Positions 1,121 to 53,340 of a stretch of 53,462 bases of DNA are shown in pieces. The notes beneath the pieces are model-generated. The model saw only the letters and a program-made list of their open reading frames with translations, searched no databases and had not been told where the DNA came from. The stretch is from Lutibacter sp. (GTDB lineage: Bacteria; Bacteroidota; Bacteroidia; Flavobacteriales; Flavobacteriaceae): positions 1-53,462 of the forward strand of contig JAUYUA010000044.1 of the NCBI GenBank assembly GCA_030694935.1, given 5' to 3'. How positions within the stretch are numbered: the first letter of the stretch is position 1; the number at the start of each line of letters is the position of its first letter. The translations under genes were made by a program, and so were the position numbers.

Positions 1121-1163
1121 TTCCGTTTTCGGTCTTCGGACATTTAACATTTAACATTTAACC
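1121..1163. repeat. Heptad word array (6 units)
   Basis: Six 7-nt words in perfect phase: CTTCCGT at 1121, TTTCGGT at 1128, CTTCGGA at 1135, then CATTTAA three times from 1142 to 1162. Related words appear near 39864 and 50889. Here the T-rich strand is the plus strand, opposite to the usual orientation after a plus-strand gene, and the array does not touch the stop codon. Confidence 0.75.
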
Positions 1164-5141: not shown

Positions 5142-6317
5142 ATGAAAAAATTAGAACTTTTTGTAATTGTCCTGCTCATTACAAGTGCGCTCTATTCACA
5201 AAATACCCAATTGAAAAAATTCAGCTCAAGAGAATTGAATGACGATCGATTTCTTAAAATTTATGTTCCGCCGGGATATGCAGACGATAAAACAAAATTG
5301 TATCCGCTAACCATTGTGCTGGATGCCGAATATTTATTTGATGTTTATGTGGGAAATTCCATCCTTTTTTCATCAAAGGAAAAAGCGCCGGAACAAATTA
5401 TTGTCGGCATCAACCAAAATCAGTTCAATGAACGCGCTAAAGATTGTGAATATTCAAAAGAAAATAGTTTGCCCACGAAAGACAGCGAGGCATTTTACCG
5501 ATTTATAAGAAGTGAATTGATGGATTATTTAGAGGAAACTTACAGGTTGTCGCCTTTTAAAACCATCGTTGGCAACACATTGACAGCCAATTTTATCAAT
5601 TATTTTTTAATAGAAGATGACCCCGGTTTTAATGCATTTGTGGCCATAAATCCGTATTATGCGCCAGATATGCCGGCGCTGATGCATCAAAAAATACCGA
5701 CTTTAAAAAATGAAAACCGATTTTATTATTTGTCCGGAGGAAACTACCTTTCTGAGAACTGGAAAACGGCAATTAATGGAACCAATGAACTTTTAAAAAC
5801 AGCCAACAATCCAAAATTTAAATATCAATACGAATTCTTCGAAAAAAGCAATGCCGTGGCGTCCATCGGACAAAGCATTCCGAGTGCTTTTGCCTTTATT
5901 TTTGATTTGTATTCGGCGATTTCAAAAGAAGAGTTTGATAAAAATATCAAAGATCTTTCGCCTGCTGATGCCATTGCATATCTGGAAAATAAATATGTTG
6001 AAATTGACTATTTATTCGGAAGCAATCTAAAAATAAGGGAAAGCGATATTTTCGCCATTGAATCCATTATTTTGGACAAAGAAAATGGGGATTATTTAAA
6101 GAATTTTGGAGAAATGATCAACAGACTTTATAAGGAATCACCGATTGGCGATTATTATATAGGACGCTATTATGAAACCGGAGGCAAATTTAAACAAGCC
6201 TTGGAGTATTACAAAAGCGGTTATATGAAATTGCCGGAAGGCGACCCCAATGCCGATGGCTATTATGAAAATATTGAAAGGGTTCTTAAAAAACGTGACG
6301 GAACTTATAAAGAATAA
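5142..6317 (+). CDS. Secreted esterase-fold protein, probably catalytically inactive
   Basis: The 391-residue protein begins with a signal peptide (LELFVIVLLITSALYSQ) and has the alpha/beta-hydrolase layout of the putative esterase (Fes/IroE-like) family: YPLTIVLDAEYLF near 57-69 and IIVGINQN near 86-93. Where the nucleophile elbow GxSxG should be, the sequence is GNTLTANF (about 144-151), with no serine. The region where the catalytic His normally sits reads SNAVASIGQSIP, with no histidine. The C-terminus has a TPR-like repeat (YYIGRYYETGGKFKQALEYYKSGY). It is probably periplasmic and may bind a ligand or partner rather than hydrolyse. Function unknown. Confidence 0.75.
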   Translation: MKKLELFVIVLLITSALYSQNTQLKKFSSRELNDDRFLKIYVPPGYADDKTKLYPLTIVLDAEYLFDVYVGNSILFSSKEKAPEQIIVGINQNQFNERAKDCEYSKENSLPTKDSEAFYRFIRSELMDYLEETYRLSPFKTIVGNTLTANFINYFLIEDDPGFNAFVAINPYYAPDMPALMHQKIPTLKNENRFYYLSGGNYLSENWKTAINGTNELLKTANNPKFKYQYEFFEKSNAVASIGQSIPSAFAFIFDLYSAISKEEFDKNIKDLSPADAIAYLENKYVEIDYLFGSNLKIRESDIFAIESIILDKENGDYLKNFGEMINRLYKESPIGDYYIGRYYETGGKFKQALEYYKSGYMKLPEGDPNADGYYENIERVLKKRDGTYKE

Positions 6318-6417
6318 TGTTAAATGTTAAATGTTAACTGTTATATGTTATAAGTTATTGGTTAGGAACCATAATTAACTTTCAGCTTTCAGCTTTTAAC
6401 TTTTAACATATAACTTA
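6318..6417. repeat. Inverted heptad word arrays between convergent genes
   Basis: After the plus-strand stop codon come seven in-phase words (TGTTAAA at 6318 and 6325, then variants to 6366). From 6374 the mirror set runs to about 6415 (TTCAGCT, TTTAACT, TTTAACA, TATAACT). The two arms are largely complementary and could fold together. The minus-strand stop codon of the CvfB-like gene (6415-6417) overlaps the array's end. Confidence 0.8.
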
Positions 6418-6867
6418 TTCCAATAAACTGTCTTTTTGTATAATTGACCAATCAGCTAATTTGATTCCTTCATCGGAAATGGTGATTAATTTTTGTCGGA
6501 ACAATCCGCCAACAGCATTTTTAAAGGCTTTTTTACTCATTCCCAACTGGTATTTTATTTCTTCCGGAGCCGTTTTATCGTTCAATGGCAAAAAACCTTT
6601 GTTTTCTTTGAGCGCCTTCAGCAGTGTAATTTCATAGCTAACAATCGTTTGTTTAAAACCTATGGGCTGCAAACTCACGTCGAGCTTTTCATCTTCCCTA
6701 ATTTTTTTAATGTAACCGGTTAATTGCTGTCCTTCATGGATTTTTTGAAAAAGCTCACTTTTATATAGCAATCCTTCAAATTCGTGATTTACCATCACCG
6801 TAAAACCCAATGTTGTGGACTTCACAACCAACAAATCTACCTTATCCCCTATCTTTAATTCTTCCAT
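6415..6867 (-). CDS. Short CvfB-like S1 / winged-helix protein
   Basis: The 150 residues match only the C-terminal half of CvfB-type RNA-binding regulators. There is one S1-like domain (about 1-70; GYIKKIREDEKLDVSLQ is highly typical) and then a winged-helix domain (about 80-145; SKKAFKNAVGGLFRQKLI). Full CvfB proteins have about 280 residues with more S1 domains at the N-terminus. The upstream neighbour menD ends 3 nt before the ATG, so the missing part is not there and this is a natural short form in the men operon. It probably binds RNA or DNA in the cytoplasm; the role is not known. Confidence 0.8.
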   Translation of the reverse strand: MEELKIGDKVDLLVVKSTTLGFTVMVNHEFEGLLYKSELFQKIHEGQQLTGYIKKIREDEKLDVSLQPIGFKQTIVSYEITLLKALKENKGFLPLNDKTAPEEIKYQLGMSKKAFKNAVGGLFRQKLITISDEGIKLADWSIIQKDSLLE

Positions 6868-10834: not shown

Positions 10835-10842
10835 ATGACAAT

Positions 10843-10976
10843 AAGTACTTAAAGTGCCTAAAGTTTGGAGTACTTAAAGTTAAAAAATAGAAAAAACCTG
10901 AAATCTTATTTCATATTTAAATTTAATAATATTGAACTTAAGGTACTCTTGGCAATCCACACTTTAGGCAGTTGTT
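10843..10976. repeat. AGTGCCTAAAGTT word repeat, copy 1 (45-nt identity with 44974)
   Basis: Positions 10843-10887 are identical over 45 nt to 44974-45018. The block is built of AGT-centred words spaced 9 or 7 nt apart. A partly complementary arm follows at about 10935-10976 (CTTAAGGTACTCTTGG and ACTTTAGGCAG), so the region between these convergent genes can fold. Confidence 0.85.
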
Positions 10977-13905: not shown

Positions 13906-13997
13906 TTTTGAACTTTTAACTTCTTATATTTAATATTATTATCCGATAAAAATTCAAAAAGATGATTTATCTCAATCAAAAAGGGACTTAATAAACA

Positions 13998-14180
13998 GTT
14001 CGCCCCTAAGGGGCTTGTTTTCCGGGAAAACCTATTTTCTACAAACAGGTCGTCCCGATGGGACTACAAAAGCTCCGTAGGAGCGAAATGTTTGTAGAAT
14101 ATTGTGAAAAATCATATTATTAAAGCCCCTTAGGGGCGACCTGTTTGTTTTTAAAAATTTAACCGCACAACAATGATTTA
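13998..14180. repeat. Interspersed hairpin-module repeat, copy B (four modules)
   Basis: Four modules of the type seen at 10-84: two inverted (about 13998-14015 and 14035-14065) and two direct (14071-14100 and 14124-14150). Each has a 5-bp stem and a 3-nt loop (GCCCC/GGGGC, GTCCC/GGGAC, GCTCC/GGAGC), most with a GACCTGTTTGTAGAA-like tail. The unit ends with ACCGCACAACAATGATT, shared with copy A. It fills most of the 383-base gap before the T9SS gene. Confidence 0.8.
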
Positions 14181-17719: not shown

Positions 17720-19708
17720 ATGCTATTTAAGTTAGAATCGAATTTCAAACCTACCGGCGATCAGCCCGAAGCAATCAAGCAATTGGTTGAGGGATTAAAT
17801 TCTCATGAAAAATTCCAAACTTTGCTGGGTGTTACGGGTTCAGGTAAAACATTTACGGTGGCAAATGTGATTCAGCAAGTGCAAAAACCAACCTTGGTTT
17901 TGGCGCATAACAAAACATTGGCGGCACAGCTTTATTCAGAATTTAAGCAGTTTTTTCCCAGCAACAGCGTCGAATATTTTGTTTCCTATTACGATTATTA
18001 TCAGCCTGAAGCGTATCTTCCGACAACCGGAACTTTTATCGAAAAAGATTTATCCATCAACGAAGACATTGAAAAGCTGCGAATCAGTGCCTCTTCTGCC
18101 CTGCTTTCGGGACGAAGAGACGTTATTATTGTGGCTTCTGTTTCGTGTATTTACGGCATTGGGAATCCGGTCGAATTCAAGAAAAACATCATTTATGTTG
18201 AAGTTGGACAGGCCATTTCCCGTACCAAATTTCTGCATTTATTGGTGGCAAGTCTGTATTCCAGAACAGAAGCCGAAATCAGCAGCGGAACCTTTAAAGT
18301 AAAAGGCGATACTATTACCGTTTACCCATCTTATGGTGAACACGCCTTCAGAATTCACTTTTTTGGCGATGAAATTGAAGAAATTGAAAGTTTCGACGTG
18401 ACCAACAATCTGGTAGTGGAAAAATTTGAACAAATCACCATTTATCCGGCAAATTTGTTCGTGACTTCTCCCGATGTTCTGCAAAATGCCATCCATCATA
18501 TTCAGGAGGATTTAATGAAGCAATTTGAGTATTTCAAAGAAATCGGCAAACATTTGGAAGCAAAACGTTTGAAAGAACGCACGGAATTTGATCTGGAAAT
18601 GATTCGCGAACTGGGTTATTGCAGCGGCATCGAAAATTATTCCCGATATCTCGACGGAAGGGAAGCCGGAACGCGCCCTTTCTGTTTGCTCGACTATTTT
18701 CCCGAAGATTATTTGATGGTGATTGATGAAAGCCACGTCACCATTCCGCAAGTTCATGCGATGTACGGCGGCGACCGGTCACGAAAGGTAAATTTGGTGG
18801 AATACGGATTCCGTTTGCCCGCGGCGATGGACAACCGTCCACTGAAATTCGGCGAATTTGAGGAAATCCAGAATCAGGTTATTTTTGTAAGTGCCACGCC
18901 AGCCGATTATGAATTGCAAAAAACAGAAGGCGTTTTTGTGGAACAGGTCATTCGGCCAACGGGTTTATTGGATCCTGAAATTCAGGTAAGGCCTAGCATC
19001 AACCAAATAGACGATCTGATTGAAGAAATTCAGTTAAGGGTTGAAAAAGATGAACGCACATTGGTCACCACGTTAACCAAAAGAATGGCTGAAGAATTGA
19101 CAAAATATTTAAGCAGAATACAAATTCGCTGCCGTTACATTCACTCTGACGTAGATACTTTAGAGCGGGTTGAAATTATGCGCGATTTGCGTTTGGGCAT
19201 TTTTGATGTGCTTATTGGCGTGAATCTTTTAAGGGAAGGACTCGATTTGCCCGAAGTTTCATTGGTGGCGATTTTGGATGCCGACAAAGAGGGTTTTTTG
19301 CGTTCGCACCGCTCTTTAACGCAAACCATTGGCCGCGCCGCAAGAAATATCAACGGAATTGCCATAATGTATGCCGACAAAATGACCAACAGCATGCAGC
19401 TTACCATCGACGAAACAAACCGTCGCCGCGAAAAACAAATTGCCTACAATACCGAAAATAACATCACGCCTACCCAAATCATAAAGAGCATCGAAAATAT
19501 TATGGGGCAAAACACGGCTTCAACCTATAATTTTGAAAATTTGGCGAATATTGCCGCCGAAGAAAAAATGGATTATATGACGAAGGCCGAACTGGAAAAC
19601 AGCATTCGCGAAAAACGCAAACAAATGGAAGAGGCCGCCAAAGCACTCGACTTTATCGCTGCCGCAAAATTGCGCGATACCATTAAGAAGTTGAAAGAAC
19701 GGATTTAG
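17720..19708 (+). CDS. uvrB: Excinuclease ABC subunit B
   Basis: UvrB is the damage-verifying helicase-like subunit of nucleotide excision repair. The 662-residue protein has Walker A GVTGSGKT (about 36-43), the beta-hairpin region YYDYYQPEAYLPTTGTFIEKD (about 90-110), motif II IDESH, motifs V and VI LLREGLDLPE and QTIGRAARN, and a C-terminal UVR motif that binds UvrC (about 625-660). Its length is typical. It ends in a CAGTTTT-type heptad array facing the transaldolase gene. Confidence 0.98.
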   Translation: MLFKLESNFKPTGDQPEAIKQLVEGLNSHEKFQTLLGVTGSGKTFTVANVIQQVQKPTLVLAHNKTLAAQLYSEFKQFFPSNSVEYFVSYYDYYQPEAYLPTTGTFIEKDLSINEDIEKLRISASSALLSGRRDVIIVASVSCIYGIGNPVEFKKNIIYVEVGQAISRTKFLHLLVASLYSRTEAEISSGTFKVKGDTITVYPSYGEHAFRIHFFGDEIEEIESFDVTNNLVVEKFEQITIYPANLFVTSPDVLQNAIHHIQEDLMKQFEYFKEIGKHLEAKRLKERTEFDLEMIRELGYCSGIENYSRYLDGREAGTRPFCLLDYFPEDYLMVIDESHVTIPQVHAMYGGDRSRKVNLVEYGFRLPAAMDNRPLKFGEFEEIQNQVIFVSATPADYELQKTEGVFVEQVIRPTGLLDPEIQVRPSINQIDDLIEEIQLRVEKDERTLVTTLTKRMAEELTKYLSRIQIRCRYIHSDVDTLERVEIMRDLRLGIFDVLIGVNLLREGLDLPEVSLVAILDADKEGFLRSHRSLTQTIGRAARNINGIAIMYADKMTNSMQLTIDETNRRREKQIAYNTENNITPTQIIKSIENIMGQNTASTYNFENLANIAAEEKMDYMTKAELENSIREKRKQMEEAAKALDFIAAAKLRDTIKKLKERI

Positions 19709-19712
19709 TAAG

Positions 19713-19818
19713 CAGTTGGCAGTTGCAGTCTTCAGTTTTTGTTTTCAATACCTATTAACTTTTGAACTTTTTAATTTTTTACTGCCAACTGAAAACTGCT
19801 ACTGCAAACTAAAAACTA
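19713..19818. repeat. Inverted heptad word arrays between uvrB and fsa
   Basis: Left arm 19713-19739 on the plus strand: CAGTTGG, CAGTTG, CAGTCTT, CAGTTTT. Right arm 19781-19818: ACTGCCA, ACTGAAA, ACTGCT, ACTGCAA, ACTAAAA, ACTAG. The fsa stop codon (19816-19818) lies in the last unit. The arms are complementary in many words, so a long hairpin between the convergent genes is possible. Confidence 0.8.
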
Positions 19819-20469
19819 GTTTCCTTTTTTATAATCTGCCAAAAACTGCGCCAAGCCAATATCGGTTAACGGGTGTTTCAACAATCCCATAATGGCGGAT
19901 AAAGGTCCGGTCATCACATCAGCGCCTAATTTTGCGCAATCGATAATATGCATGGTGTGGCGCACTGAAGCTGCCAAAATTTCTGTTTCGTAGCCATAAT
20001 TGTCGTAAATAAGTCTGATTTCAGAAATCAAATTTAATCCGTCTGTAGAAATATCATCCAACCTGCCAATAAAAGGAGACACATAAGTTGCACCTGCTTT
20101 AGCTGCCAACAAAGCTTGTCCGGCCGAAAAAACCAAGGTCATATTCACCCTGATTCCTTTATCGGTAAAGTATTTACAAGCTTTAATTCCATCGGCAATC
20201 ATCGGTAATTTAACCACAATTTGTGGGTGCAAATCGGCCAATGCTTCTCCTTCTCTCACCATCCCTTCAAAATCAGTTGCAATCACTTCGGCACTTACAT
20301 CACCGTCCACAATATTGCAAATTGCCACATAATGTTTTAAAATATTGTCTTTTCCCGTAATGCCTTCTTTAGCCATTAAGGAAGGATTTGTGGTTACACC
20401 ATCCAAAACACCCAATGCTTGTGCTTCTTTAATTTGCTCGAGGTTCGCTGTATCAATAAAAAATTTCAT
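19816..20469 (-). CDS. fsa: Fructose-6-phosphate aldolase / transaldolase (small type)
   Basis: The 217-residue protein belongs to the short transaldolase group (TalC/FSA). It starts with MKFFIDTANLEQI and has DGVTTNPSLMAKEG (about 24-37), the Schiff-base Lys in IVVKLPM (about residue 86), NMTLVFSAGQALLAAKAGATYVSPF and a C-terminal LAQFLADYKK. These enzymes act in sugar-phosphate interconversion in the cytoplasm. The sequence alone does not separate transaldolase from aldolase activity. A TATCTTTG box lies about 30 nt upstream. Confidence 0.93.
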   Translation of the reverse strand: MKFFIDTANLEQIKEAQALGVLDGVTTNPSLMAKEGITGKDNILKHYVAICNIVDGDVSAEVIATDFEGMVREGEALADLHPQIVVKLPMIADGIKACKYFTDKGIRVNMTLVFSAGQALLAAKAGATYVSPFIGRLDDISTDGLNLISEIRLIYDNYGYETEILAASVRHTMHIIDCAKLGADVMTGPLSAIMGLLKHPLTDIGLAQFLADYKKGN

Positions 20470-20498
20470 AATATATGGTAGGTTATATTTTTATGGTA

Positions 20499-20506
20499 CA
20501 AAGATA
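20499..20506 (-). promoter_or_regulatory. Predicted -7 box of fsa
   Basis: The minus strand reads TATCTTTG (TAnnTTTG) about 30 nt before the ATG. No TTG partner was found at the right distance. Confidence 0.45.
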
Positions 20507-20605
20507 GGATTTTAATTATAAATTTTTTAAAATGTTATGTCGTTTAATCATTGATAAGTTGAGATGTTATTATAAACTTTAATTTTCATTTCATAGAAAA
20601 ACACA

Positions 20606-20717
20606 CCCCTAACCCTCCCGTTCTAAAAACGGGACAGGCTTCTCGAGAGGGGAATTTAACACCTTCAATTTTTAACTTGACTGCCAACTTCTGACTTTTA
20701 ATATTTAACTTTTAACT
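20606..20717. repeat. GC-rich hairpin plus heptad array after the SDR gene
   Basis: The left part (20606-20653) is a CCCCTAACCCTCCCG hairpin segment with an inner CCCGTT/AACGGG stem. From 20671 a mostly in-phase heptad array follows (TTTAACT at 20671, 20704 and 20711, with TCTGACT and TTTAATA between). The SDR stop codon (20705-20707) lies inside a TTTAACT unit. Confidence 0.7.
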
Positions 20718-21523
20718 TTTATTTTGAAGTGATTCATCAACATCTTTTCATAAACTTTATCAGGCAATATTCTTTTCAAAATAATAGAAAATTTTTGCAT
20801 AAAATCGCCCACTTTATAATGAATTTTCGGTTTTGGCGTGTTTATAATTTTAAAAATAGCTTCAGCCATCTGGATCGGATTGCTGCCGCTGTCGACATGA
20901 ACATTCATTAAATCCAGATTTTTCTGATAGTTTTCTTTGTAGGGAGAATTTTCAAAAACCGGCGTATGGTAACGGCCAGATGCTATGTTTGTGGCAAAAT
21001 CGCCCGGCGCCACGTTGGTCACTTCAATGCCAAAACCTTTAACTTCCATCCTAATGGCTTCTGTCACAATCTCCAAAGCGCCTTTTGTTGCCGAATAAAT
21101 GCCCCTGAACGGCAAACCCATATAACCTGCAATGGAAGTCACGTTAATAATCAGTCCGCTTTGTTGTTGGCGCATTTGGGGCAAAACGGCTTTCATCATT
21201 TCTATAGGCCCGAAAAAATTGGTTTCAAAAACCTTTCGCATTTCATCGGTTGGCGTTTCCTCAATGGCTCCGGTAATGCCCATTCCTGCATTGTTAATCA
21301 AAATGTCGATTTGGCCTTCCGCAGTGATAATATCATCAACAGCTTTTAGAATGGTTTCCCTATCATTAACGTCCAAGGCAATTAAGCGAAAAGGGTGATT
21401 GGTGATATTATTCGGATTTCTGCTGGTTCCGTAAACAATAAATCCCTTTTTGGTTAAAAATTCACCTACAGATTTCCCTATTCCCGAAGAACCTCCTGTA
21501 ATTAAAACGACTTTATTTCTCAT
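20705..21523 (-). CDS. Short-chain dehydrogenase/reductase
   Basis: This classical SDR of 272 residues is probably cytoplasmic and NADP-dependent. TGGSSGIGKSVG (about 8-19) is the cofactor site; DVND, ILINNAGMG (about 76-84), INVTSIAG with the catalytic Ser, and YSATKGALE with Tyr and Lys (about 148-156) follow. PGDFATNIASGR lies in the substrate loop. The long C-terminus (KVGDFMQKFSIILKRILPDKVYEKM) resembles SDRs annotated as oxidoreductases of lipid or retinol type. No substrate can be assigned. Confidence 0.9.
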   Translation of the reverse strand: MRNKVVLITGGSSGIGKSVGEFLTKKGFIVYGTSRNPNNITNHPFRLIALDVNDRETILKAVDDIITAEGQIDILINNAGMGITGAIEETPTDEMRKVFETNFFGPIEMMKAVLPQMRQQQSGLIINVTSIAGYMGLPFRGIYSATKGALEIVTEAIRMEVKGFGIEVTNVAPGDFATNIASGRYHTPVFENSPYKENYQKNLDLMNVHVDSGSNPIQMAEAIFKIINTPKPKIHYKVGDFMQKFSIILKRILPDKVYEKMLMNHFKIKVKS

Positions 21524-21704: not shown

Positions 21705-21989
21705 TTACGATTTTTGATTTACGAAAAAATAACGTAATCAAATGTTAACCAAAAAAAAATTGCGCACTTTGCGTTTTTTTTCTTGCTTTCCTTGCGGTTA
21801 AATGCAAATTTCGTTTGAATTGATTTTTTTAATTTTTTAATTGTTTTTATTATAGAATACGCAAAATACTTTACTAATTGGCATTCAGCCAAAAATTGCA
21901 ATCTCATTAAGAAATCAAAAGTAAGTTATTTATGGAGATTTAAAAAGTCCTTTCCTTAGGAAGGTATTTAGGATAGGATAAAAGAAAAA

Positions 21990-22085
21990 GGGCAAGCGAC
22001 CTACATCACACCGCTACAACCTAATACCTTTGCTGCGTTCCCGCCCTGGAGGGTTCAAAGGGAGCTGGTTGTGTAGGACTTGCCC
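21990..22085 (-). ncRNA. ffs: Signal recognition particle RNA, small bacterial type
   Basis: The minus-strand transcript folds end to end (GGGCAAG with CTTGCCC). Its apical part is the SRP domain IV: CAGG, a GCG stem, the GGAA tetraloop, CGC, then AGCA (plus-strand 22031-22048). This is the Ffh-binding site. The length of about 96 nt fits the 4.5S class. A TAAATTCG box (22097-22090) just upstream resembles a -7 element, and a T-rich run follows the 3' end. It works with Ffh in co-translational membrane targeting. Confidence 0.94.
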
Positions 22086-22255
22086 GGCGCGAATTTACAA
22101 TCATTTTTTTAATTTTACCACTATTTTTTTTCAAATTTTATTGTAACAAAATTAAATGAGTGTTTACTAATAACTTAGTATTATTGTTGGTATTTTAACG
22201 CCAATTGTAATAAGGTATTTAGTATATTTGTTCAACCAAAAATCAATCAATTATT

Positions 22256-25768: not shown

Positions 25769-27592
25769 ATGAAGTACTTCAGACAAATATTGGTTTATGC
25801 CATACCTTATAAAATATATGGTGTTTTAAACATTATCAGCAATATTTTTTATGCTTTGTTTGGAACATTGGCGTTCGTTTCTCTAATGCCAATGCTTAAA
25901 GTACTGTTTAAAACTGCGGAACCCATCACCGAAAAACCTTTATATGAAAGCATTTCAAAATTGGGTGATTATATTGAAAATTCCATCAATTACTTCATTA
26001 CTGTCAAAGTAAATACCGAAGGCGAAATGAAGGCTTTACTGTTTATGATTATCATTGTGATCAGTACTTTTTTGCTTAAAAACATTTTTGGCTATTTGGC
26101 GATGTACTTTATCACCTTTTTACGAAATGGGGTTTTAAAGGATGTTCGGAATGATTTGTATGAAAAAACGGTCGATTTGCCGCTGGCCTATTTTTCTGAA
26201 AAAAGAAAAGGTGATATTATTGCGAGAATTTCAACTGATGTGCTGGAAATCCAACATTCATTTTTATCAATCTTAGAACTGATTGTCAGAGAACCTTTAA
26301 TGATTTTGTTTACCATAATCGCAATGCTGGCTTTAAGTCCGCAATTGACTTTATTTGTTTTCATTTTTATTCCGATAGCGGGAATCGTTATTTCTTTGGT
26401 AGGAAAGAAATTAAAAAGACAATCAGATAAAGTTCAAAAAGAGCAGGGTTTATTTTTATCGATTTTAGAAGAAACGTTGGGCGGATTAAGGGTCATCAAA
26501 GGATTTAATGCCGAAGGTTATTTCAATTCGAAATTCAGGGAATCCACTTCCCGATTTTACAGATTTTCCAATTCGTTGCTGAACAGACAAAATTTGGCTT
26601 CGCCCTTGAGCGAATTTTTGGGAATCGGCGTTATTGCCGTATTACTTTGGTATGGAGGCTCTTTGGTTTTGGTGTCAAAAACATTGGCTCCCGATGCTTT
26701 TATTGTTTTTATGGGATTGGCTTACAACATTTTAACTCCGGCAAAAGCCATTTCAAAAGCGGCTTATGGCGTTAAAAAAGGCGATGCCGCTGCGGAACGC
26801 GTGCTTGAAATTTTGCATACCACTTCGCCATTGGCCGACAAGCCGAATGCGTTGGTGAAAGATGATTTTAATTCGGCCATCAGCATTGAGAATATTTCAT
26901 TTAAATATGAAGATGAATATGTGCTTAAAGATTTCTCGTTGGAAATTCCCAAAGGAAAAACAGTGGCTTTTGTTGGACAATCGGGAAGCGGAAAATCGAC
27001 CATCGCCAATTTACTGACCCGTTTTTATGACGTCAATGAAGGCAGCATTAAAATTGACGGCATCGACATTCGTGACATCACAAAAAAATCATTACGCAGT
27101 CTGCAAGGACTTGTTTCCCAAGATTCTATTTTGTTTAACGACAGCATCAAAAACAATATATTATTGGGCATCGAAAATAAAACGGAAGCGGAAATTATGG
27201 ATGCCGCCAAAATTGCGAATGCTCACGAATTTATTGATGAGATGCCAAATGGCTACGATTCCAATATTGGCGACAGCGGAAACAAGCTTTCGGGCGGACA
27301 AAAACAGCGGTTGAGCATTGCGCGTGCGGTATTGAAAAATCCACCAATTATGATTTTGGATGAAGCCACATCTGCTTTAGACACAGAAAGCGAACGTTTG
27401 GTGCAGGATGCGTTGGAAAAAATGATGAAAAACAGAACTTCCGTGGTGATTGCACACCGACTTTCAACGGTTCAAAAAGCGGATATTATTGTGGTATTGC
27501 TGAAAGGAAAAATCATTGAGCAAGGAAATCACGAGGAATTGATCGCTAAAAATGGCGTTTATACCAAGTTGGTGGAAATGCAGACGCTGTAG
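25769..27592 (+). CDS. MsbA-like lipid or drug ABC exporter (fused TM and ATPase)
   Basis: This half-transporter of 607 residues has an N-terminal six-helix domain (about 20-330) and a C-terminal ATPase. The ATPase has Walker A GQSGSGKST (about 402-410), Q-loop LVSQDSILFNDS, signature LSGGQKQRLSIARA, Walker B MILDEATSALD (about 527-537) and H-loop VIAHRLSTV. It works as a homodimer in the inner membrane. MsbA-type lipid A flipping is the usual annotation in this phylum, but drug export cannot be excluded. Confidence 0.93.
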   Translation: MKYFRQILVYAIPYKIYGVLNIISNIFYALFGTLAFVSLMPMLKVLFKTAEPITEKPLYESISKLGDYIENSINYFITVKVNTEGEMKALLFMIIIVISTFLLKNIFGYLAMYFITFLRNGVLKDVRNDLYEKTVDLPLAYFSEKRKGDIIARISTDVLEIQHSFLSILELIVREPLMILFTIIAMLALSPQLTLFVFIFIPIAGIVISLVGKKLKRQSDKVQKEQGLFLSILEETLGGLRVIKGFNAEGYFNSKFRESTSRFYRFSNSLLNRQNLASPLSEFLGIGVIAVLLWYGGSLVLVSKTLAPDAFIVFMGLAYNILTPAKAISKAAYGVKKGDAAAERVLEILHTTSPLADKPNALVKDDFNSAISIENISFKYEDEYVLKDFSLEIPKGKTVAFVGQSGSGKSTIANLLTRFYDVNEGSIKIDGIDIRDITKKSLRSLQGLVSQDSILFNDSIKNNILLGIENKTEAEIMDAAKIANAHEFIDEMPNGYDSNIGDSGNKLSGGQKQRLSIARAVLKNPPIMILDEATSALDTESERLVQDALEKMMKNRTSVVIAHRLSTVQKADIIVVLLKGKIIEQGNHEELIAKNGVYTKLVEMQTL

Positions 27593-27598
27593 AAAAGC

Positions 27599-27734
27599 GT
27601 TATTTGTTATTTGTTATTCGTTGATTTGTTGCTTCGTTACCAAATCGGATACTTGATTAATTCACTAATTTTTCCATTCAAAATATTAATTCCCCCTTCG
27701 GGCCTGCCTGCCGGCGAGGCAGGGGTTAGGGGGC
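27599..27734. repeat. GTTATTT heptad array and GC-rich hairpin
   Basis: Six nt after the exporter stop, GTTATTT (27599 and 27606), GTTATTC, and then two 8-nt variants run to about 27641. At 27692-27734 a CCCCCTTCGGGCCTGCC-type hairpin of the CTAACCCC family sits just before the convergent CCA-adding enzyme gene. Confidence 0.7.
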
Positions 27735-34884: not shown

Positions 34885-34992
34885 AAGGTTAAGTTCATTA
34901 AAAGAATAAACAGATTGCCACAGTTTTTTTCCAAAAAACTTCGCAATGACGAAACAAATAATCGATTAAACAATTAAACAGTTAAAAAATAA

Positions 34993-38019: not shown

Positions 38020-39690
<1,671 letters not shown>

Positions 39691-39693
39691 TCC

Positions 39694-39919
39694 TATCCCC
39701 AACCCTTTCCGAAGGAAAGGGAGTTTGATTGAAATAAGAAATTGAGCTTTCAGCTTTGAACTTTGAGCTTTCAGCTTTAAATATTTAACTTCTAACCCTA
39801 TCCCCGGCCCTTTCCCTCCCGATAGATCGGGAGAAAGGGGGTTTGATTTGGTTTAAAAAAAACTTCAGTCTTCGGTCTTCGGTCTTCCAGCCTTTAACTT
39901 TTAACTTCTAATATTTATT
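39694..39919. repeat. CCCTTTCC hairpins and two heptad arrays before the ParE-like gene
   Basis: This reads in order: a CCTATCCCC/CCCTTTCC-GGAAAGGG hairpin (39694-39722), TTGATTGAAATAAGA, eight in-phase words (39742-39797, TTNANCT type), a second hairpin with CTCCCGATAGATCGGGAG (39808-39841), then eight more in-phase words (39864-39919; TTCGGTC twice, TTTTAAC, TTCTAAT). The arrays read AGNTNAA in the sense of the minus-strand gene that ends at 39942. Confidence 0.8.
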
Positions 39920-39941
39920 ATGAGGAGTTGTGTGTAGTTTT

Positions 39942-40241
39942 TTATTCTGATATTCTTCTCTTTAAATCCATTCTCTCGTGAAGAATCCTCGTGATTTCCA
40001 CATAGTTTTCATTTAGAATTCTATAAAAAATAATATGACGATTCATTTTCATTCCGAATAGGCTTTGCGTAATTGCATCATAGTTTTTTCCTAAGTCTGG
40101 ATGGTCTGCAATTTCTTGACAAGTTGAAATTAGCATCTCATAATATTTGTCAGCTTGATTTTCAGACCAAACTTCGAAAGTGTAATCCCAAATTTTCGAT
40201 AAATCCTCAACTGCTTTATTGGTCAATTTAAATTCAGCCAT
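39942..40241 (-). CDS. ParE/RelE-type toxin
   Basis: The 99-residue protein fits the ParE branch of the RelE/ParE superfamily: FKLTNKAVEDLSKIWDYTFEVWSENQADKYYEML (about 4-37), HPDLGKNYDAI, and RHIIFYRILNENYVEITRILHERMDLKRRI (about 68-97) with the Arg-rich strand and RILHERMD ending. ParE toxins attack gyrase. The start overlaps the end of the ParD-like gene by 8 nt, so translation is probably coupled. Confidence 0.92.
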   Translation of the reverse strand: MAEFKLTNKAVEDLSKIWDYTFEVWSENQADKYYEMLISTCQEIADHPDLGKNYDAITQSLFGMKMNRHIIFYRILNENYVEITRILHERMDLKRRISE

Positions 40242-40485
40242 TTGAGTGTTTTTTCGCTTTTAGAGATTCAAGATGCTTTTTTGGATCAAAATCTTGAGCA
40301 ATTCCGCTATCAATCCCTTCTTGAATTGCGTTTTTCAATGCAATTACTTTACTTTCTTCCTCTTCTAAAAGTCTTAACCCTGCTCGAATAACTTCGCTAA
40401 CATTTTTAAATCGACCTTCTCTTATTCGACTTTGAACGAATTGGTCAAAATAACTTCCTAATGATATTGATGTGTTTTTGTTCAT
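40234..40485 (-). CDS. ParD-type antitoxin
   Basis: The 83-residue protein has the ribbon-helix-helix start typical of ParD/CC2985: NTSISLGSYFDQFVQSRIREGRFKNVSEVIRAGLRLLEEEE (about 3-43). The acidic and helical C-terminus (about 44-80) binds the toxin. It likely represses its own promoter through the inverted repeat at 40507-40525. It forms an operon with the ParE gene. Confidence 0.93.
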   Translation of the reverse strand: MNKNTSISLGSYFDQFVQSRIREGRFKNVSEVIRAGLRLLEEEESKVIALKNAIQEGIDSGIAQDFDPKKHLESLKAKKHSNG

Positions 40486-40502
40486 TTTTAGACTATTTTA
40501 TT

Positions 40503-40534
40503 CAAATATACCAATAATTGGTATAATATCCAAA
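40503..40534 (-). promoter_or_regulatory. ParDE promoter with inverted-repeat operator
   Basis: On the minus strand TTTG (40534-40531), 20 nt and TATATTTG (40510-40503) form a near-ideal promoter. Between and overlapping the -7 box lies TATACCAA-TAA-TTGGTATA (40507-40525), a perfect 8-bp inverted repeat with a 3-nt spacer. It fits a ribbon-helix-helix repressor dimer site. The ATG at 40485 follows the -7 box by 17 nt. Confidence 0.78.
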
Positions 40535-40607
40535 TTTCAAATTACACACAACTTCTAATATCTAACATTTAATATTCTACCCATCTACGGCAGTGAAGTA
40601 AACTTTT

Positions 40608-40863
40608 TCTCCCGATAGGAGCTATCGGGAGAAAGGGAGCTTGATTGAAATAAGAATTGAGCTTTCAGCTTTGAGCTTTGAGCTTTTAAATCCTATCCCC
40701 AGCCCCTACCGCGGCAGGTAAACTTTCCCAAGGAAAGGTGGGTTTATTGAAATAAGAGTTGAGCTTTGAGCTTTCACCTTTGAGCTTTGAGCTTTGAACT
40801 TTCAGCTTTGAACTTTCACCTTTCACCTTTGAGCTTTTAGCTTTTAGCATTAAATATCTAACT
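40608..40863. repeat. Palindrome plus heptad arrays up to the wzc stop codon
   Basis: This reads: a 25-bp palindromic segment with CCCGATAG/CTATCGGG (40608-40632), GAAAGGGAGCTTGATTGAAA, four in-phase words (40657-40684), another CCTATCCCC hairpin (about 40690-40740), then fifteen consecutive 7-nt words of the form TTNANCT or close variants from 40759 to 40863. There is no slip in phase. The wzc stop codon (40858-40860) lies in the last word. Together with the ParD promoter this fills the 372-base gap. Confidence 0.87.
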
Positions 40864-43320
40864 TCTCTTTTTTCTCTTAAAAATATTTTTCACAAATGAT
40901 TTGGTGGCAACTTCTTCGCCTCCATATCCATTGGCATATTTTCCGTAGCCATAGCCGTAACCGTAGCCGTTTCCATAACCGCCATAACGCAATTTCATGG
41001 TAAAATCGTTCAGGATAATGCTGATGTTTGTAATTTCTTCTTTGATATATTTTTCGTTGATCATTTTAAGCATACCTGTCTGGGAATAATTTTGTCGGAC
41101 GATATACAGCGTGGAATCGGCATATTTCAGCAATTCAACCGCATCACTCACCAATCCGATTGGCGGCGTGTCTAAAATGATATAATCGTAATTTTCTTTT
41201 AAACTGCTCAATAATTCTTCCGTTGCGGAGCTGATTAACAATTCTGAAGGATTTGGCGGCACCGGACCGGCAATGATGACATCCAAATTGGGGATTTTTG
41301 TTTTTTGGATAATCGCCTCTATATTTTCCTCGCCTATTAAATAATTCACCACACCTTTTTCATTGGAAACCTCAAAATTTTCAAATATTTTCGGTTTGCG
41401 CAGATCCAATCCGACCAAAATTGTTTTTTTGCCGCCCAAAGCAAAAACCGTAGCCATATTCATGGAAACAAATGTTTTGCCTTCTCCGCTTACGGATGAT
41501 GTCACAATAATGGTTTTACACTTGTCTTTGGTGCTTCGGGTAAACAAAAATTGGATGTTTGAACGCAGCGCCCTAAATGATTCGGCGACACCCGATTTCG
41601 GTTTGGTAAATACCGCCAAATTGCTGTCAGTACCATTGTTTCCCACCACTCCTAAAACTGGGATGGGCGAAATTTTTTCAATATCTTCGGTCGAGTGAAT
41701 TCGGGTATCCAGCAATTCTTTGGCAATAATCAAAAAGAGCGGCAAAATGGTTCCCAAAAGCAACGCCACCATATAGTTAAACTCTTTTCTCGGCAAAATA
41801 GACCCTTGTCCGGTATCTTTTGCGGTATCCAATACCGAAATATCCGAAACCGTTGAGGCAATCGCAATATCGGCTTCGTACCGCTTCTGCATCAGGAAAA
41901 CATAATTTGATTCGGTCATACTGTATTTTCGTTGAAAATTCAGTAATTTCTGTTCTTTGCTCGGAAGCTTATTCAGCTCAGCATTGTAACCGCTTAAGCG
42001 ATTTCTGCTGTTGTTCAGTGTAATTCTGGTTTCCTTTTTTAAGGATGAAAGGTTTTCAAGCAACACATTGCGGGTGGTTTCAACTTCTTGCTCAACCGCA
42101 ATTAGCGAGGGGTGATTTGCGGTGACTTCTTTCGCTAACTTGTCCTTTTTGATGGAAAGTTCCGTTAATTTCCCCACCATGCCCGAAATAGAGCCATCTT
42201 CAATATTGATGATTGCCGGCGCAGGAATGTTGGTGAAATTTGTATGGGTTTTGATGTAGTTTTCCAGATTGTTGAAATACGCGATCCGGTCGCCCAGCTG
42301 CTCTTGCATTTTATCCAGACTCAGGGTTTGGGAAAATATTTCACCGCCTTCGGCCGATAATTCGTAGATGGCATTTTCCTGTTTAAACTTTCCGATGTTG
42401 TCTTCAATCAATCGTAAACTGTCGGAAGTATTTTTAAACTGCGCGTCAATAAATTCTTTGGTGCTTCGGGCATAATTTGTTTTTTCTTCCAATTCAAGTT
42501 CGGCCAAAACAATCACCGTTTCATTCAAATAATCAACCAGCCTGTTTTTATTAGGGCCCGACAAGCTTAATTCAATCAAAGAAGTGCCTGTAAGTCCGGC
42601 CGCCCTCACATTCTGATATTCGCCGGCTACCTGATCGATCGTCCTCATCTGAATATAATAGGATTGGCCTTTTAAGTTTTTTGCATCCTCTTTTCTTTCA
42701 ATCTGCGCTTTTAAAAACGGCAGATTGATATATTCATCAATGGAAAATACTTTTAAAAAACGTTTTTTATTGCCTTCAAGATCTATTTGTGATTCGTCTT
42801 TGTAATTGATTAATTTGTATGTTCCTTTTTCATTAAAATCAACCGAAAGTTCAAAACGATTATTGTCTAAAAAATCTATTTTGATGAAGGTGTTCAGCAG
42901 TTGGTGTTGGTTGGGCTGCAAAATAACGGTAAACGGCACTTCGCCATAAGCATCTTCTGTTCTGAAACGGCCGTCTTTTAAATAATCAATATAAAAATTG
43001 AGCCTGTTGATCACTTTTTCATTGTGAGATCTTGAAGTCAGCGCTTTTCTGATGGATTCAACTTTGTCGCTCACGCCACCCCAGTTAAAAGCAATGTTGG
43101 TTCCCGATGAAAATAGCGGATTTTGTTTTTCGTTTACGGCAATGGTGGTTTTCAGTCCGTAAACCCTTTGGGTGGAAATATTGATATAATAGGCCACTGC
43201 CAATGCAATGCCAATGGTGGCCACAAACCATTTCCAATTGGCTAAAATTCGAAATAAATAATCTTTAATGTTTGAGATTTGCTCACTTGGATTTTCAATA
43301 AATTTGAATTTATGATCCAT
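40858..43320 (-). CDS. Wzc-like polysaccharide co-polymerase and BY-kinase
   Basis: The 820-residue inner-membrane protein controls capsule or exopolysaccharide chain synthesis. It has an N-terminal Wzz domain with a membrane helix (about 30-50), a long periplasmic coiled-coil part (about 270-480), a second helix (about 510-528) and a cytoplasmic kinase domain. The kinase shows Walker A SSVSGEGKT (about 606-614), Walker A' VGLDLRKPK and Walker B IILDTPPIG (about 712-720). The C-terminal tail has eight tyrosines in a Gly-rich stretch (about 775-800), the expected autophosphorylation cluster. The Wza-like gene lies 6 nt upstream. Confidence 0.94.
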   Translation of the reverse strand: MDHKFKFIENPSEQISNIKDYLFRILANWKWFVATIGIALAVAYYINISTQRVYGLKTTIAVNEKQNPLFSSGTNIAFNWGGVSDKVESIRKALTSRSHNEKVINRLNFYIDYLKDGRFRTEDAYGEVPFTVILQPNQHQLLNTFIKIDFLDNNRFELSVDFNEKGTYKLINYKDESQIDLEGNKKRFLKVFSIDEYINLPFLKAQIERKEDAKNLKGQSYYIQMRTIDQVAGEYQNVRAAGLTGTSLIELSLSGPNKNRLVDYLNETVIVLAELELEEKTNYARSTKEFIDAQFKNTSDSLRLIEDNIGKFKQENAIYELSAEGGEIFSQTLSLDKMQEQLGDRIAYFNNLENYIKTHTNFTNIPAPAIINIEDGSISGMVGKLTELSIKKDKLAKEVTANHPSLIAVEQEVETTRNVLLENLSSLKKETRITLNNSRNRLSGYNAELNKLPSKEQKLLNFQRKYSMTESNYVFLMQKRYEADIAIASTVSDISVLDTAKDTGQGSILPRKEFNYMVALLLGTILPLFLIIAKELLDTRIHSTEDIEKISPIPVLGVVGNNGTDSNLAVFTKPKSGVAESFRALRSNIQFLFTRSTKDKCKTIIVTSSVSGEGKTFVSMNMATVFALGGKKTILVGLDLRKPKIFENFEVSNEKGVVNYLIGEENIEAIIQKTKIPNLDVIIAGPVPPNPSELLISSATEELLSSLKENYDYIILDTPPIGLVSDAVELLKYADSTLYIVRQNYSQTGMLKMINEKYIKEEITNISIILNDFTMKLRYGGYGNGYGYGYGYGKYANGYGGEEVATKSFVKNIFKRKKRS

Positions 43321-49694: not shown

Positions 49695-49728
49695 GTTAAT
49701 GTTATACGTTAAATGTTATACGTTGGCA
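49695..49728. repeat. GTTATAC/GTTAAAT heptad array after secA
   Basis: Five GTT words at 49695, 49701, 49708, 49715 and 49722 (spacing 6, 7, 7, 7) begin 21 nt after the secA stop. The last one is part of GTTGGCAAC (49722-49730), the left flank of the toxin-antitoxin cassette. Confidence 0.7.
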
Positions 49729-50048: not shown

Positions 50049-50365
50049 TGACATCGAAAATTATTTGGTCTGAATTTGCAGAAACTCAACTTGACGAAAT
50101 CTATAAATATTACGAAAAGGAAGCGGGTTCAAGAATTGCCAAGAAACTTTTGAAAGGAATTATCAACGAGCCAAAAAAGTTGATAAAAACACCGCACATT
50201 GGACAAGAAGAAGAATTGTTAAAACGGAGAAAAATTGAATATAGATATTTAGTTTTCAAAAACTACAAACTGATTTATTCTGTCGACACGGAAAATGGAT
50301 TTATAAAAATTGCAGATGTTTTCGACACTCGACAAAATCCACCGAAACTGGAAAGAACGGAATAA
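50048..50365 (+). CDS. RelE/ParE family toxin
   Basis: The 105-residue protein fits the RelE/ParE toxin superfamily: IIWSEFAETQLDEIYKYYEKEAGSRIAKKLLKGII (about 5-39), PHIGQEEELL, and EYRYLVFKNYKLIYSVDTENGFIKIADVFDTRQNP (about 62-96) with the ending DVFDTRQNP common to these toxins. The pair is flanked by GTTGGCAAC (49722) and GTTGCCAAC (50371). Target (mRNA or gyrase) cannot be told from the sequence. Confidence 0.9.
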   Translation: MTSKIIWSEFAETQLDEIYKYYEKEAGSRIAKKLLKGIINEPKKLIKTPHIGQEEELLKRRKIEYRYLVFKNYKLIYSVDTENGFIKIADVFDTRQNPPKLERTE

Positions 50366-50538
50366 AGCTAGTTGCCAACACCTAATAAAATTTATGCTAA
50401 CATTTGAACTAGCAGAAACTGTACGTTAAATGTTCGCTTAAAACTAATGAATAAAAAATGGTTTATTGGACAACGTTTTATGCTTGAATCAATAATTTTA
50501 ATAATTTTTCCGGATTTTGTCCGTTAGTCCAAAAATAG

Positions 50539-50881: not shown

Positions 50882-50941
50882 TATAACTTCCGTCTTCCGT
50901 CTTGAACATACCTTATAACTTCTAATATTTAAAATTTAACC
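50882..50941. repeat. Heptad array ending in the DUF2461 stop codon
   Basis: Words of 7 nt occur at 50882 (TATAACT), 50889 and 50896 (TCCGTCT), then, after an 11-nt gap, at 50914 (TATAACT), 50921, 50928 and 50935 (TTTAACC). The stop codon of the minus-strand gene (50936-50938) lies inside the last one. Confidence 0.75.
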
Positions 50942-51610
50942 AACCAATGATTCGCCGTTTAAATCGGTGGTCAGCACATCGCTCATATAATCCAAATACG
51001 GCCTCATGGCCACAAAAGAAGCAACAACTTCTGTCAAAAAGTTTGGCGCCAACACTTCATCATCGGTAAATTCACGCGACACAATAAATTGCTTTAGCCT
51101 TATTAAATCGATGTTCGGGTGGTTCTTGTCAAACCCTCTCGGTGCCGATTTTACGGCATCACCCTGTAATTTTCCGAAATGTTTTTTAAAATCAGCCGTG
51201 TTGACAATCGCACGAATTTCCGTGGCGTCTTCTTCAAATTCTTTTCTGATGCGCGCCAAATCTTCCTTATTCGGTTCCCAAAATCCGCCAGCCAAAAAAC
51301 TTTCTCCCGGACTGATATGCAAATAGTATCCGCCGCGCAATTTATTCGTTGCCCGGGTAAACTGTCCGCCAAAATGCGATTTAAAAGGCAGCTTGTCTTT
51401 TGAAAATCGCACATCCCTATAAATTCTGAATATTTTTACGCTTTCAATAAGGTCGGTAACTTTTAAACGCTCCATTACTGCATTATAAAAAGTTTTAACC
51501 TTTTTTTGTTCCGCGTCAAACGTTGTTTTATTTGCATTAAACCACTCACGATTGTTATTGGCTTTCAGCGATATTAAAAAATCTAAGGTCGATTTTGAAA
51601 TTGTGTTCAT
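50936..51610 (-). CDS. DUF2461 family protein
   Basis: The 224-residue protein matches DUF2461 (TIGR02453): TLDFLISLKANNNREWFNANKTTFDAEQKKVKTFYNAVM (about 8-46), FRIYRDVRFSKDKLPFKSHFGGQFTRA (about 61-87), YYLHISPGESFLAGGFWEP and the C-terminal RGFDKNHPNIDLIRLKQFIVSREFTDDE. The biochemical role of this family is not known. It is probably cytoplasmic. It follows hisIE on the same strand with a gap of 77 nt. Confidence 0.92.
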   Translation of the reverse strand: MNTISKSTLDFLISLKANNNREWFNANKTTFDAEQKKVKTFYNAVMERLKVTDLIESVKIFRIYRDVRFSKDKLPFKSHFGGQFTRATNKLRGGYYLHISPGESFLAGGFWEPNKEDLARIRKEFEEDATEIRAIVNTADFKKHFGKLQGDAVKSAPRGFDKNHPNIDLIRLKQFIVSREFTDDEVLAPNFLTEVVASFVAMRPYLDYMSDVLTTDLNGESLVG

Positions 51611-51654: not shown

Positions 51655-51690
51655 AAAAATCGTAAATCGTATATCAAAAATCTAAAATCA
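51655..51690. repeat. ATC-ended heptad array containing the hisIE stop codon
   Basis: Five words of 7 nt, AAAAATC (51655 and 51676), GTAAATC, GTATATC and TAAAATC, run in perfect phase to 51689. The hisIE stop codon (51688-51690) covers the last two bases and the next one. In the gene's sense the array reads GATTTNN from the TGA stop onward. Confidence 0.8.
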
Positions 51691-52287
51691 TTCATGTCTT
51701 TCTTCCAAAATCTTCACCACATCTTTCAATGCAAACCCTTTTGCCTGCAACAAAATTAGGTAATGAAAAAGCAAATCGGCACTTTCGTTTATGAATAAAT
51801 CATCATTGTCATCTTTTGCTTCAATCACCACTTCTATGGCCTCCTCGCCTACTTTTTGGGCTATTTTGTTGATGCCTTTCTCAAACAAGGAAGCCACATA
51901 ACTTTTTTCTGAATTGCCTGCTTCTCGCCTGCTTTTAATCACTTTTTCCAGTTCAGACAGAAACCCGAAAGTTGTTTCGTTTTGTTCTCCCCAACACGTA
52001 TCCGTTCCTTTATGGCAGGTTGGGCCAACGGGATTTACCAGAATGAGCAAGGTATCTAGGTCGCAATCGTTTTGTACGGAAACCACGTTTAAAAAATTGC
52101 TACTTTCCTCCCCTTTTGTCCACAACCTGTTTTTGGTTCTGCTGAAAAAAGTCACCTGACTCGTTTCAATTGTTTTGTCAAAAGCCTCCTGATTCATATA
52201 ACCCAGCATCAACACATTTTTTGTGATTGCGTCTTGAATGATAGCGGGAATTAATCCGTCGTTATTTTTGTTGAAATTTATGTTCAT
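51688..52287 (-). CDS. hisIE: Bifunctional HisI/HisE (PRA-CH / PRA-PH)
   Basis: This bifunctional enzyme performs the second and third steps of histidine synthesis. The N-terminal HisI part (about 1-105) shows LIPAIIQDAITKNVLMLGYMNQEAF, FFSRTKNRLWTKGEESSNFL and the metal site CDLDTLLILV with HKGTDTCWG (about 91-99). The HisE part (about 110-199) has SYVASLFEKGINKIAQKVGEEAIEVVIEA and the ending ESADLLFHYLILL. It follows hisF by 47 nt on the minus strand, fitting the end of a his operon. Confidence 0.97.
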   Translation of the reverse strand: MNINFNKNNDGLIPAIIQDAITKNVLMLGYMNQEAFDKTIETSQVTFFSRTKNRLWTKGEESSNFLNVVSVQNDCDLDTLLILVNPVGPTCHKGTDTCWGEQNETTFGFLSELEKVIKSRREAGNSEKSYVASLFEKGINKIAQKVGEEAIEVVIEAKDDNDDLFINESADLLFHYLILLQAKGFALKDVVKILEERHE

Positions 52288-53250: not shown

Positions 53251-53340
53251 AATATCTAATATCTAATATCTAATATCTAATATCTAATATCTAATATCTA
53301 ATATCTAATATCTAATATCTAATATCTAATATCTAATATT
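53251..53340. repeat. (AATATCT)12 heptanucleotide satellite
   Basis: Twelve exact copies of AATATCT from 53251 to 53334 are followed by a partial copy that ends in AATATT. Related words (AATATTAGAAGT) occur at about 53104 and 53166. The 372-base stretch 53091-53462 otherwise holds only AT-rich sequence and no gene that can be supported. This is the most regular member of the 7-nt word family in the window. Confidence 0.97.

Follow-up and report, generated by a model that had tools for sequence, protein, structure and literature searches.

Heptanucleotide arrays at ORF edges of a Lutibacter genome: phase, orientation, shared words and turnover

The window, i.e., the whole 53,462-nt stretch analyzed here (contig C58 of genome G000, a 3.22 Mb draft in 107 contigs), carries intergenic arrays of tandem 7-nt words, which are probably fast-turnover heptanucleotide repeats of the STRR or long simple-sequence-repeat kind that arise by slippage and template switching. 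The arrays keep a 7-nt phase, occupy ORF edges in a preferred orientation, draw on a dictionary of words used across the genus, are nearly absent from coding DNA and turn over site by site; one of the gaps that hold them appears to be inverted. They had been noticed in an initial annotation made from the letters of the window, whose observation proved real, non-random and right for the most part.

To assess abundance, the window was combined with twenty 20-kb stretches of the same genome (453,462 bp subset) and then with twenty further stretches (812,624 bp). All 40 stretches came from contigs with at least one pattern match and were picked irrespective of the position of the match; genes were predicted with a simple purpose-made caller, the start positions of which are uncertain. 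The larger set contains 54 period-7 arrays, of which a single one lies deep within a called gene. In the 278 intergenic regions of at least 40 nt of the subset (65,618 bp), 28 lag-7 segments reached a score of 12, against a mean of 0.36 and a maximum of 2 in 50 dinucleotide shuffles. The control lags 4, 5, 6, 8, 9, 10, 11, 12 and 13 yielded 11, 0, 0, 8, 2, 1, 0, 0 and 1 segments in the same intergenic set, while lags 14 and 21, multiples of seven, yielded 22 and 8. Coding DNA (386,789 bp) contributed two lag-7 segments at this threshold. Three consecutive TTNANCT words occur 207 times genome-wide, and the reversed control occurs seven times. A tandem 7-nt unit is present above chance and mainly between genes, as is characteristic of heptanucleotide simple repeats of the STRR or LSSR kind.

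The main array of the window (40759..40851, minus strand, lag-7 score 48.5) reads as purine-rich AGNTNAA in the minus-strand sense and begins 6 nt past the stop of gene 40858-43320, which is encoded on the same strand. It had been described as fifteen TTNANCT words at 40759-40863; words 1-12 are exact and in a single phase, and words 13-15 (TTTAGCA TTAAATA TCTAACT) do not fit TTNANCT, so the array consists of twelve words and a decayed tail. A second TTNANCT array lies in the same gap (40657..40686, minus, score 18), 171 nt from either gene. A third (39742..39778, minus, score 17.5) is located between the ABC-F gene ending at 39690 and ParE ending at 39942, at distances of 51 and 163 nt, and is followed by a CTTCNGT array, AAGNCNG in sense (39863..39887, minus, score 15.5), with TTTAACT words next to it toward ParE. 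Several arrays begin at or close to stop codons: TGTTAAA/TATGTTA at the stop of gene 5142-6317 (6316..6364, plus, score 27), AGTTAAA/AGCTGAA at the stop of gene 6415-6867 (6379..6418, minus, score 20.5), AGTTAAA overlapping the stop and the codons preceding it in gene 20705-21523 (20697..20721, minus, score 13), GTTATTT 6 nt past the stop of gene 25769-27592 (27599..27622, plus, score 14.5), and a short CTTCCGT array 32 nt past the stop of gene 50936-51610 (50887..50903, minus, score 10). Four entries were given no strand: a mixed CTTCGGT/AACATTT array 69 nt past a stop, an exception to the edge rule described below (1121..1162, score 17.5); AAATCGT/AAATCTA at the stop of gene 51688-52287, oriented contrary to that rule (51657..51689, score 13.5); weak CAGTTNN words past both convergent genes 17720-19708 and 19816-20469 (19712..19798, scores 7 and 6); and an AATATCT array of 12.7 perfect copies (53251..53339, TRF score 178). 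Among the 13 other sites of the initial annotation, nine reach a lag-7 score of 10 (1121, 6318, 6374, 20671, 27599, 39742, 39864, 50882 and 51655); the remaining four (13872, 19713, 19781 and 49695) score 6 to 8.5 and are individually not above chance. For the last of these low-scoring sites, TRF reports a perfect 14-nt repeat at 49698-49724.

Array density per kb of gap is 1.27 between convergent genes, 0.48 and 0.40 in the two tandem arrangements, and 0.11 between divergent genes. For the edge analysis every array was read on its pyrimidine-rich strand, an edge being a stop or start within 15 nt; 51 of the 54 arrays were used, one being inside a gene and two having no two flanking genes. On their 3′ side 19 of the 51 abut a stop and one a start, on their 5′ side three and one; random placement and orientation gave means of 5.6, 2.6, 5.6 and 2.6, with at most 14 in the first class in 2000 trials. 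The enrichment at gene 3′ ends claimed from the letters is hence borne out (19 against 5.6). Among the matches listed for genus relatives, 31 distinct runs abut a stop in 11 cases and a start in four, always with their 3′ side (mean for stops under random placement 3.5, maximum 11). Raw counts for 31 arrays from other genera of the family, one additional array inside a called gene having been dropped, are 13 stops and five starts against 0. A set drawn from named genomes of many phyla (at least 120 arrays found, 108 listed outside called ORFs), which supplies examples rather than frequencies and relies on crude ORFs chosen by length, gave 27 stops and 12 starts against nine and six in the opposite orientation (binomial p 0.0015).

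The purine-rich strand thus mostly reads outward from the ORF at either edge, stop or start. The AGTTNNN or AGNTNAA sense relative to the gene, as initially proposed, applies to the majority of arrays; it fails for GATTTAC/AAATCGT arrays, and the array at 1121 lies 69 nt from its stop. Arrays of the AAATCGT family depart from the edge rule in G000 at 51657, L043:1425 and L058:2382. As orientation follows the ORF edge at stops and starts alike, the strand that would be transcribed is not the same in the two positions, and since the orientation holds at starts as well as at stops, a cause at the level of DNA is more probable than a signal in RNA.

In array-free flanks of G000 the orientation of the arrays is weakly echoed at both edges: AGT/ACT counts are 328/251 after stops and 250/388 before starts, so that AGT is the commoner of the two at each edge in the outward reading. 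The general purine content of 3′ flanks was rejected as the cause of the orientation, array-free flanks being only 0.51-0.52 purine after stops. Stop codons inside the arrays were likewise rejected, because the difference between the two strands in frames containing a stop (1.78 vs 1.35 of 3) is too small for 19 vs 3. The possibility that convergent gene ends form inverted repeats of a common vocabulary is striking at 6318-6414 and does not generalize (mean 8.02 vs 7.22, sd 2.82, n = 41). A palindromic tetramer with a 3-nt loop does not account for the 7-nt unit either, being found in 21 of 54 units vs 24.5 by letter shuffling.

The units fall into several families: AAAAGTT/AAAGCTC-like words (TTNANCT on the other strand), AAGACCG/AAGTCGG, AAATCGT, AATATCT, AACATAT and others, and different families join in phase inside one array. 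Word statistics were taken from 42 TTNANCT runs with 213 words at 25 loci, including stretches fetched because of matches. Ten of the 16 possible words are in use, seven of which make up 205 of the 213, and positions 3 and 5 are mutually dependent (0.67 bit). Read from the word list, the seven commonest words are linked as a chain of single changes. Words do recur between distant loci, in agreement with the shared vocabulary suggested at the outset, and those of G000 are also present in its congeners G311, G315, G319, G329 and G330 (among the matches listed), whereas G023, from another genus, uses TTTACCT and TTTATCT.

Neighbouring words are identical at a frequency of 0.275 vs 0.303 after shuffling (sd 0.023), i.e., without excess, while second-next words are identical at 0.388 vs 0.295 (sd 0.03), the pattern expected after 14-nt duplications. 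Shared word order is weak at best: in a comparison that also uses stretches fetched because of matches, 3-word strings are shared by 33 locus pairs vs 25.4 (sd 5.0) and 4-word strings by eight vs 3.5 (sd 2.0) when words are shuffled inside arrays. Long copies of word order between loci were therefore rejected, the string counts giving only this weak signal. The AT content of words is 0.77 beside the gene and declines outward to about 0.5 (permutation p = 0.004), with 19 arrays contributing at the first word and four left at the tenth.

The three-word TTNANCT pattern is present in 87 of 299 genomes of the family and in 17 of 38 genomes of the genus, with 0 to 258 matches per genome. The closely related G330 has 92-96% DNA identity to G000 over the greater part of the stretch compared. 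Eighteen gaps containing a gene 3′ end could be compared between the two: the six with an array (score at least 9 in either genome) have an identity of 0.49-0.62, against 0.58-0.99 in the 12 array-free gaps, 11 of which are at 0.82 or more (p = 0.002). In 109 relative-gap cells, 12 reach a score of 12 at lag 7 vs two at the highest-scoring of five other lags; when the threshold is 9, lag 7 barely differs from other lags (15 vs 13).

Conservation of array position in related genomes, which the initial annotation had named as decisive for its claim, is partial: two gaps recur within the close clade, and other gaps never do. In the convergent gap 6318-6414, arrays score at least 12 in five of seven close genomes (G000, G330, G329, G315 and G327), and the proteins on either side of it are about 98% identical in G330 and G329. 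The gap 19709-19815, weak in the window, reaches a score of 12 in five of the seven, excluding G000 and G327, with relatives scoring 8-17 overall and those above the threshold 12-17; the gap 20470-20704 has arrays at a score of 12 in two of the seven. At the gaps 8560, 9352 and 17625, no mapped close genome scores 9 at lag 7. The more distant congeners G047 and G269 lack visible arrays at the matching gene ends (13 were inspected by eye, one of them unmatched in G047), and no lag-7 score reaches 9 in their mappable gaps.

The gap 6318-6414 illustrates how the content of a retained site changes. The words differ from those of G000 in G330 (GTTTCAA-type) and in G327 (AAGCTGA/AAGATCA-type), while GTTATAT-type words are common to G000, G329 and G315, but are arranged differently. 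Local alignment scores against G000 are higher in the reversed than in the forward direction for G329 (58/35), G330 (26/18) and G315 (34/22), and these three aligned among themselves have higher forward scores (28/23, 28/12 and 32/25). Judged from these alignment scores, the gap appears to have been inverted in G000.

We hypothesize that replication slippage in 7-nt steps would create and lengthen the arrays, and that point mutation would diversify their words, consistent with the chain of single changes linking the seven commonest. Template switching or recombination through the bases common to all words (CTTT) may mix the arrays; mixing of this kind would leave the phase intact and disperse words but not their order. 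Selection would exclude arrays from genes and promoters, leading to their accumulation at 3′ ends. The finding that adjacent words are no more alike than shuffled ones (0.275 vs 0.303) counts against simple duplication of single units. The dictionary common to loci exceeds what independent slippage predicts, which suggests a copying step, although copies of several words are weakly represented. The fall in AT content with distance from the edge (p = 0.004) is unexplained by slippage and template switching.

A broader interpretation is tentative, and we consider it distinctly less probable than not: the outward rule would be a general DNA-level property of bacteria, valid for any phylum and word and independent of G-quadruplexes, and would be combined with a genus dictionary exchanged in phase, implying an unrecognised in-phase template switching. 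If general, the edge rule suggests that replication or repair at gene edges is involved, which is now testable.

That the arrays are functional 3′ UTR elements of RNA, acting in 3′-end formation, stability or protein binding via repeated AGU-type words, is unlikely. In favour of such a role are the 19 of 51 arrays beginning at stop codons in the sense of the gene and the lack of terminator hairpins beside arrays in tandem gaps of 80-300 nt (0/7 vs 60/166 without arrays) and in tandem genes when 220 nt are searched (0/15 vs 86/233). However, the arrays are unstructured (mean z −0.41 on one strand and −0.40 on the other, for 52 arrays of at least 24 nt), and convergent gaps are less folded with arrays (−1.66, n = 8) than without (−3.26, n = 43). 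When whole gaps are searched, terminators of tandem genes occur in 5/15 cases beside arrays vs 97/224 without (p = 0.59), and in convergent gaps in 6/13 vs 50/89. A small effect of arrays on terminator frequency may exist, given the 0/7 vs 60/166 in gaps of 80-300 nt. We do not claim a replacement of terminators by arrays, as 0/15 at 220 nt becomes 5/15 over whole gaps; z values of about −0.4 also rule out folded RNA and do not conform to intrinsic terminators, which need a hairpin followed by a T tract. Words and sites are, moreover, not retained in congeners. The role in RNA 3′-end formation or stability that the annotation had offered is weakened mainly because the arrays have the same DNA orientation at starts, where it corresponds to the opposite RNA sense.

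A slightly less probable alternative is that a mobile-element or exchange system, together with CCTATCCCC, CCTGCCTGCCGGCAGGCAGG and GCCCCCTAACCCCCGAAGGGGG, targets gene 3′ ends and mobilizes, e.g., ParDE, the arrays being its passengers or its sites. Gaps with arrays do also gain or lose CCTATCCCC, CCTGCCTGCCGGCAGGCAGG and GCCCCCTAACCCCCGAAGGGGG elements between species. The ParDE pair (39942-40485, Pfam) is 90% identical to a copy located elsewhere in the congener G047, and it is flanked by arrays on both sides here and by one short array there; contig C43 of G000 is rich in arrays and small genes. On the other hand, eight G023 loci share words but have, by eye, unlike flanks, and many arrays adjoin ordinary genes such as uvrB. 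Many copies of CCTATCCCC have no adjoining array (by eye), and arrays as a fixed component of this element were rejected for the same reason.

We regard as improbable that the arrays are putative binding sites of a repeat-reading DNA- or RNA-binding protein whose specificity sets the dictionary. The restricted use of words (10 of 16) and the dependence between positions 3 and 5 (0.67 bit) would suit such a protein, but the dictionary varies by genus (TTTACCT/TTTATCT in G023), several unrelated word families join in phase within one genome, and ten or so congeners otherwise alike in proteins are array-free (21 of 38 have no match). Phase-variation SSRs in promoters or early coding regions of contingency genes are discounted by the density of 0.11 per kb in divergent gaps, by the single array of 54 inside a gene, and by neighbours such as uvrB and a secA-like gene.

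The arrays have counterparts among repeats already described. The STRR repeats of heterocystous cyanobacteria are degenerate heptanucleotide tandem repeats comprising several families. The comparison with them made in the initial annotation is justified insofar as the arrays are a real heptanucleotide class, enriched at 3′ ends and with a common vocabulary; they differ from STRRs in belonging to another phylum and probably in using other words. TTNANCT arrays of at least five words, mostly uniform, do appear in Richelia, Rivularia, Calothrix and Scytonema records among the matches listed.

Rehm et al. (2015) described G-rich heptamers, GGGAATC and GGGGA(C/T)T, in Xanthomonas and Nostoc and discussed G-quadruplexes; the purine-rich strand is the coding one up to 50 bp past stops, or the non-coding one up to 50 bp ahead of starts (PMC4692102). 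The present arrays resemble these heptamers, as that report describes them, in having an intergenic 7-nt unit that is rare in divergent gaps and in differing between close species at the same genes, and they follow the same outward purine-strand rule at starts and stops (PMC4692102). In contrast, their words lack GGG and have no G-quadruplex capacity, and several word families share one genome; gene neighbourhoods are stable around the Xanthomonas and Nostoc heptamers, whereas here the array gaps are the variable gaps (PMC4692102). With words lacking GGG, the edge rule needs a cause other than G-quadruplexes.

MacGregor (2015) reported direct repeats of TAACTGA in Beggiatoaceae, some cyanobacteria and Bacteroidetes, suggested a role in rearrangement, and listed heptamer repeats, TAACTGA among them, in Gramella, Aequorivita, Elizabethkingia and others (PMC4679880). 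The initial statement that no named equivalent exists in Bacteroidota is therefore not quite right. As described there, TAACTGA repeats are likewise intergenic tandem heptamers, occur in Bacteroidetes too, and are missing from the same gap in close relatives; they differ in consisting of one fixed word placed mostly directly before starts in Beggiatoaceae, where related heptamers are rarely repeated (PMC4679880). Identity with TAACTGA repeats was rejected: this word is absent from our units, and 19 of 51 arrays lie at stops and two of 51 at starts.

In most of the genomes examined, heptamers outnumber all other classes of long simple repeat (PMC4679880, citing Mrazek 2007); Mrazek et al. (2007), as cited, proposed slippage linked to a 7-nt polymerase contact (PMC4679880, PMC4692102). 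The arrays share the heptamer class with those long simple sequence repeats; the account as cited contains no degenerate common dictionaries (PMC4679880, PMC4692102). Degenerate heptanucleotide repeats with copy-number variation also occur in the Nostoc tRNA-Leu intron (P6b stem), but these pair into an RNA hairpin, unlike the arrays here, which do not fold (PMC3488679). Heptanucleotide elements are mentioned in Geobacter as well (PMC2700814). In the literature covered, mostly outside subscription journals, neither a degenerate common dictionary nor site-wise replacement of arrays is described for Flavobacteriaceae. The arrays are of a known kind; new are the edge rule with words lacking G-quadruplex capacity, for which another cause is needed, and the genus-wide word dictionary. 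The length, place and role of heptamer repeats are left open in the literature (PMC4679880), and the genus, with 0 to 258 pattern matches per genome, provides a natural series for tracing arrays at known sites between close relatives.

Further repeats and elements were noted. A CCTATCCCCAGCCCTTTCC hairpin element occurs at window positions 39692, 39797, 40692 and elsewhere, with 39 genome matches vs 0 for the reversed control; some copies are seemingly in coding sequence (L040:16675 and L041:9613, by eye). A dispersed repeat of about 240 bp (13925-14179) is matched dozens of times in G330 and further congeners, in several cases at contig ends. Directly past a stop codon, a repeat of about 48 bp reading AGTACTTAAAGTGCCTAAAGTTTGG (10840-10889) has many copies in G311 and some in G319, and a 30-60 bp repeat (50360-50421) has many matches in G047 and G269. 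The Bacteroidales small SRP RNA is encoded on the minus strand at 21986-22092; this match assigns the genome to Bacteroidota, and Flavobacteriaceae is the probable family. By eye, stretch L031, from contig C43, carries very many TTNANCT arrays broken up by GCCTGCCTCCGGCAGG palindromes and many small ORFs resembling toxin-antitoxin genes. Viral contigs also carry the pattern, in at least 120 stretches. Finally, ATTAAACAATTAAACAGTT, a 9-nt-type repeat at 34885-34992, is longer in G330 (control-lag score 32 vs 12.5 in the window), a difference that likely reflects slippage at another period.
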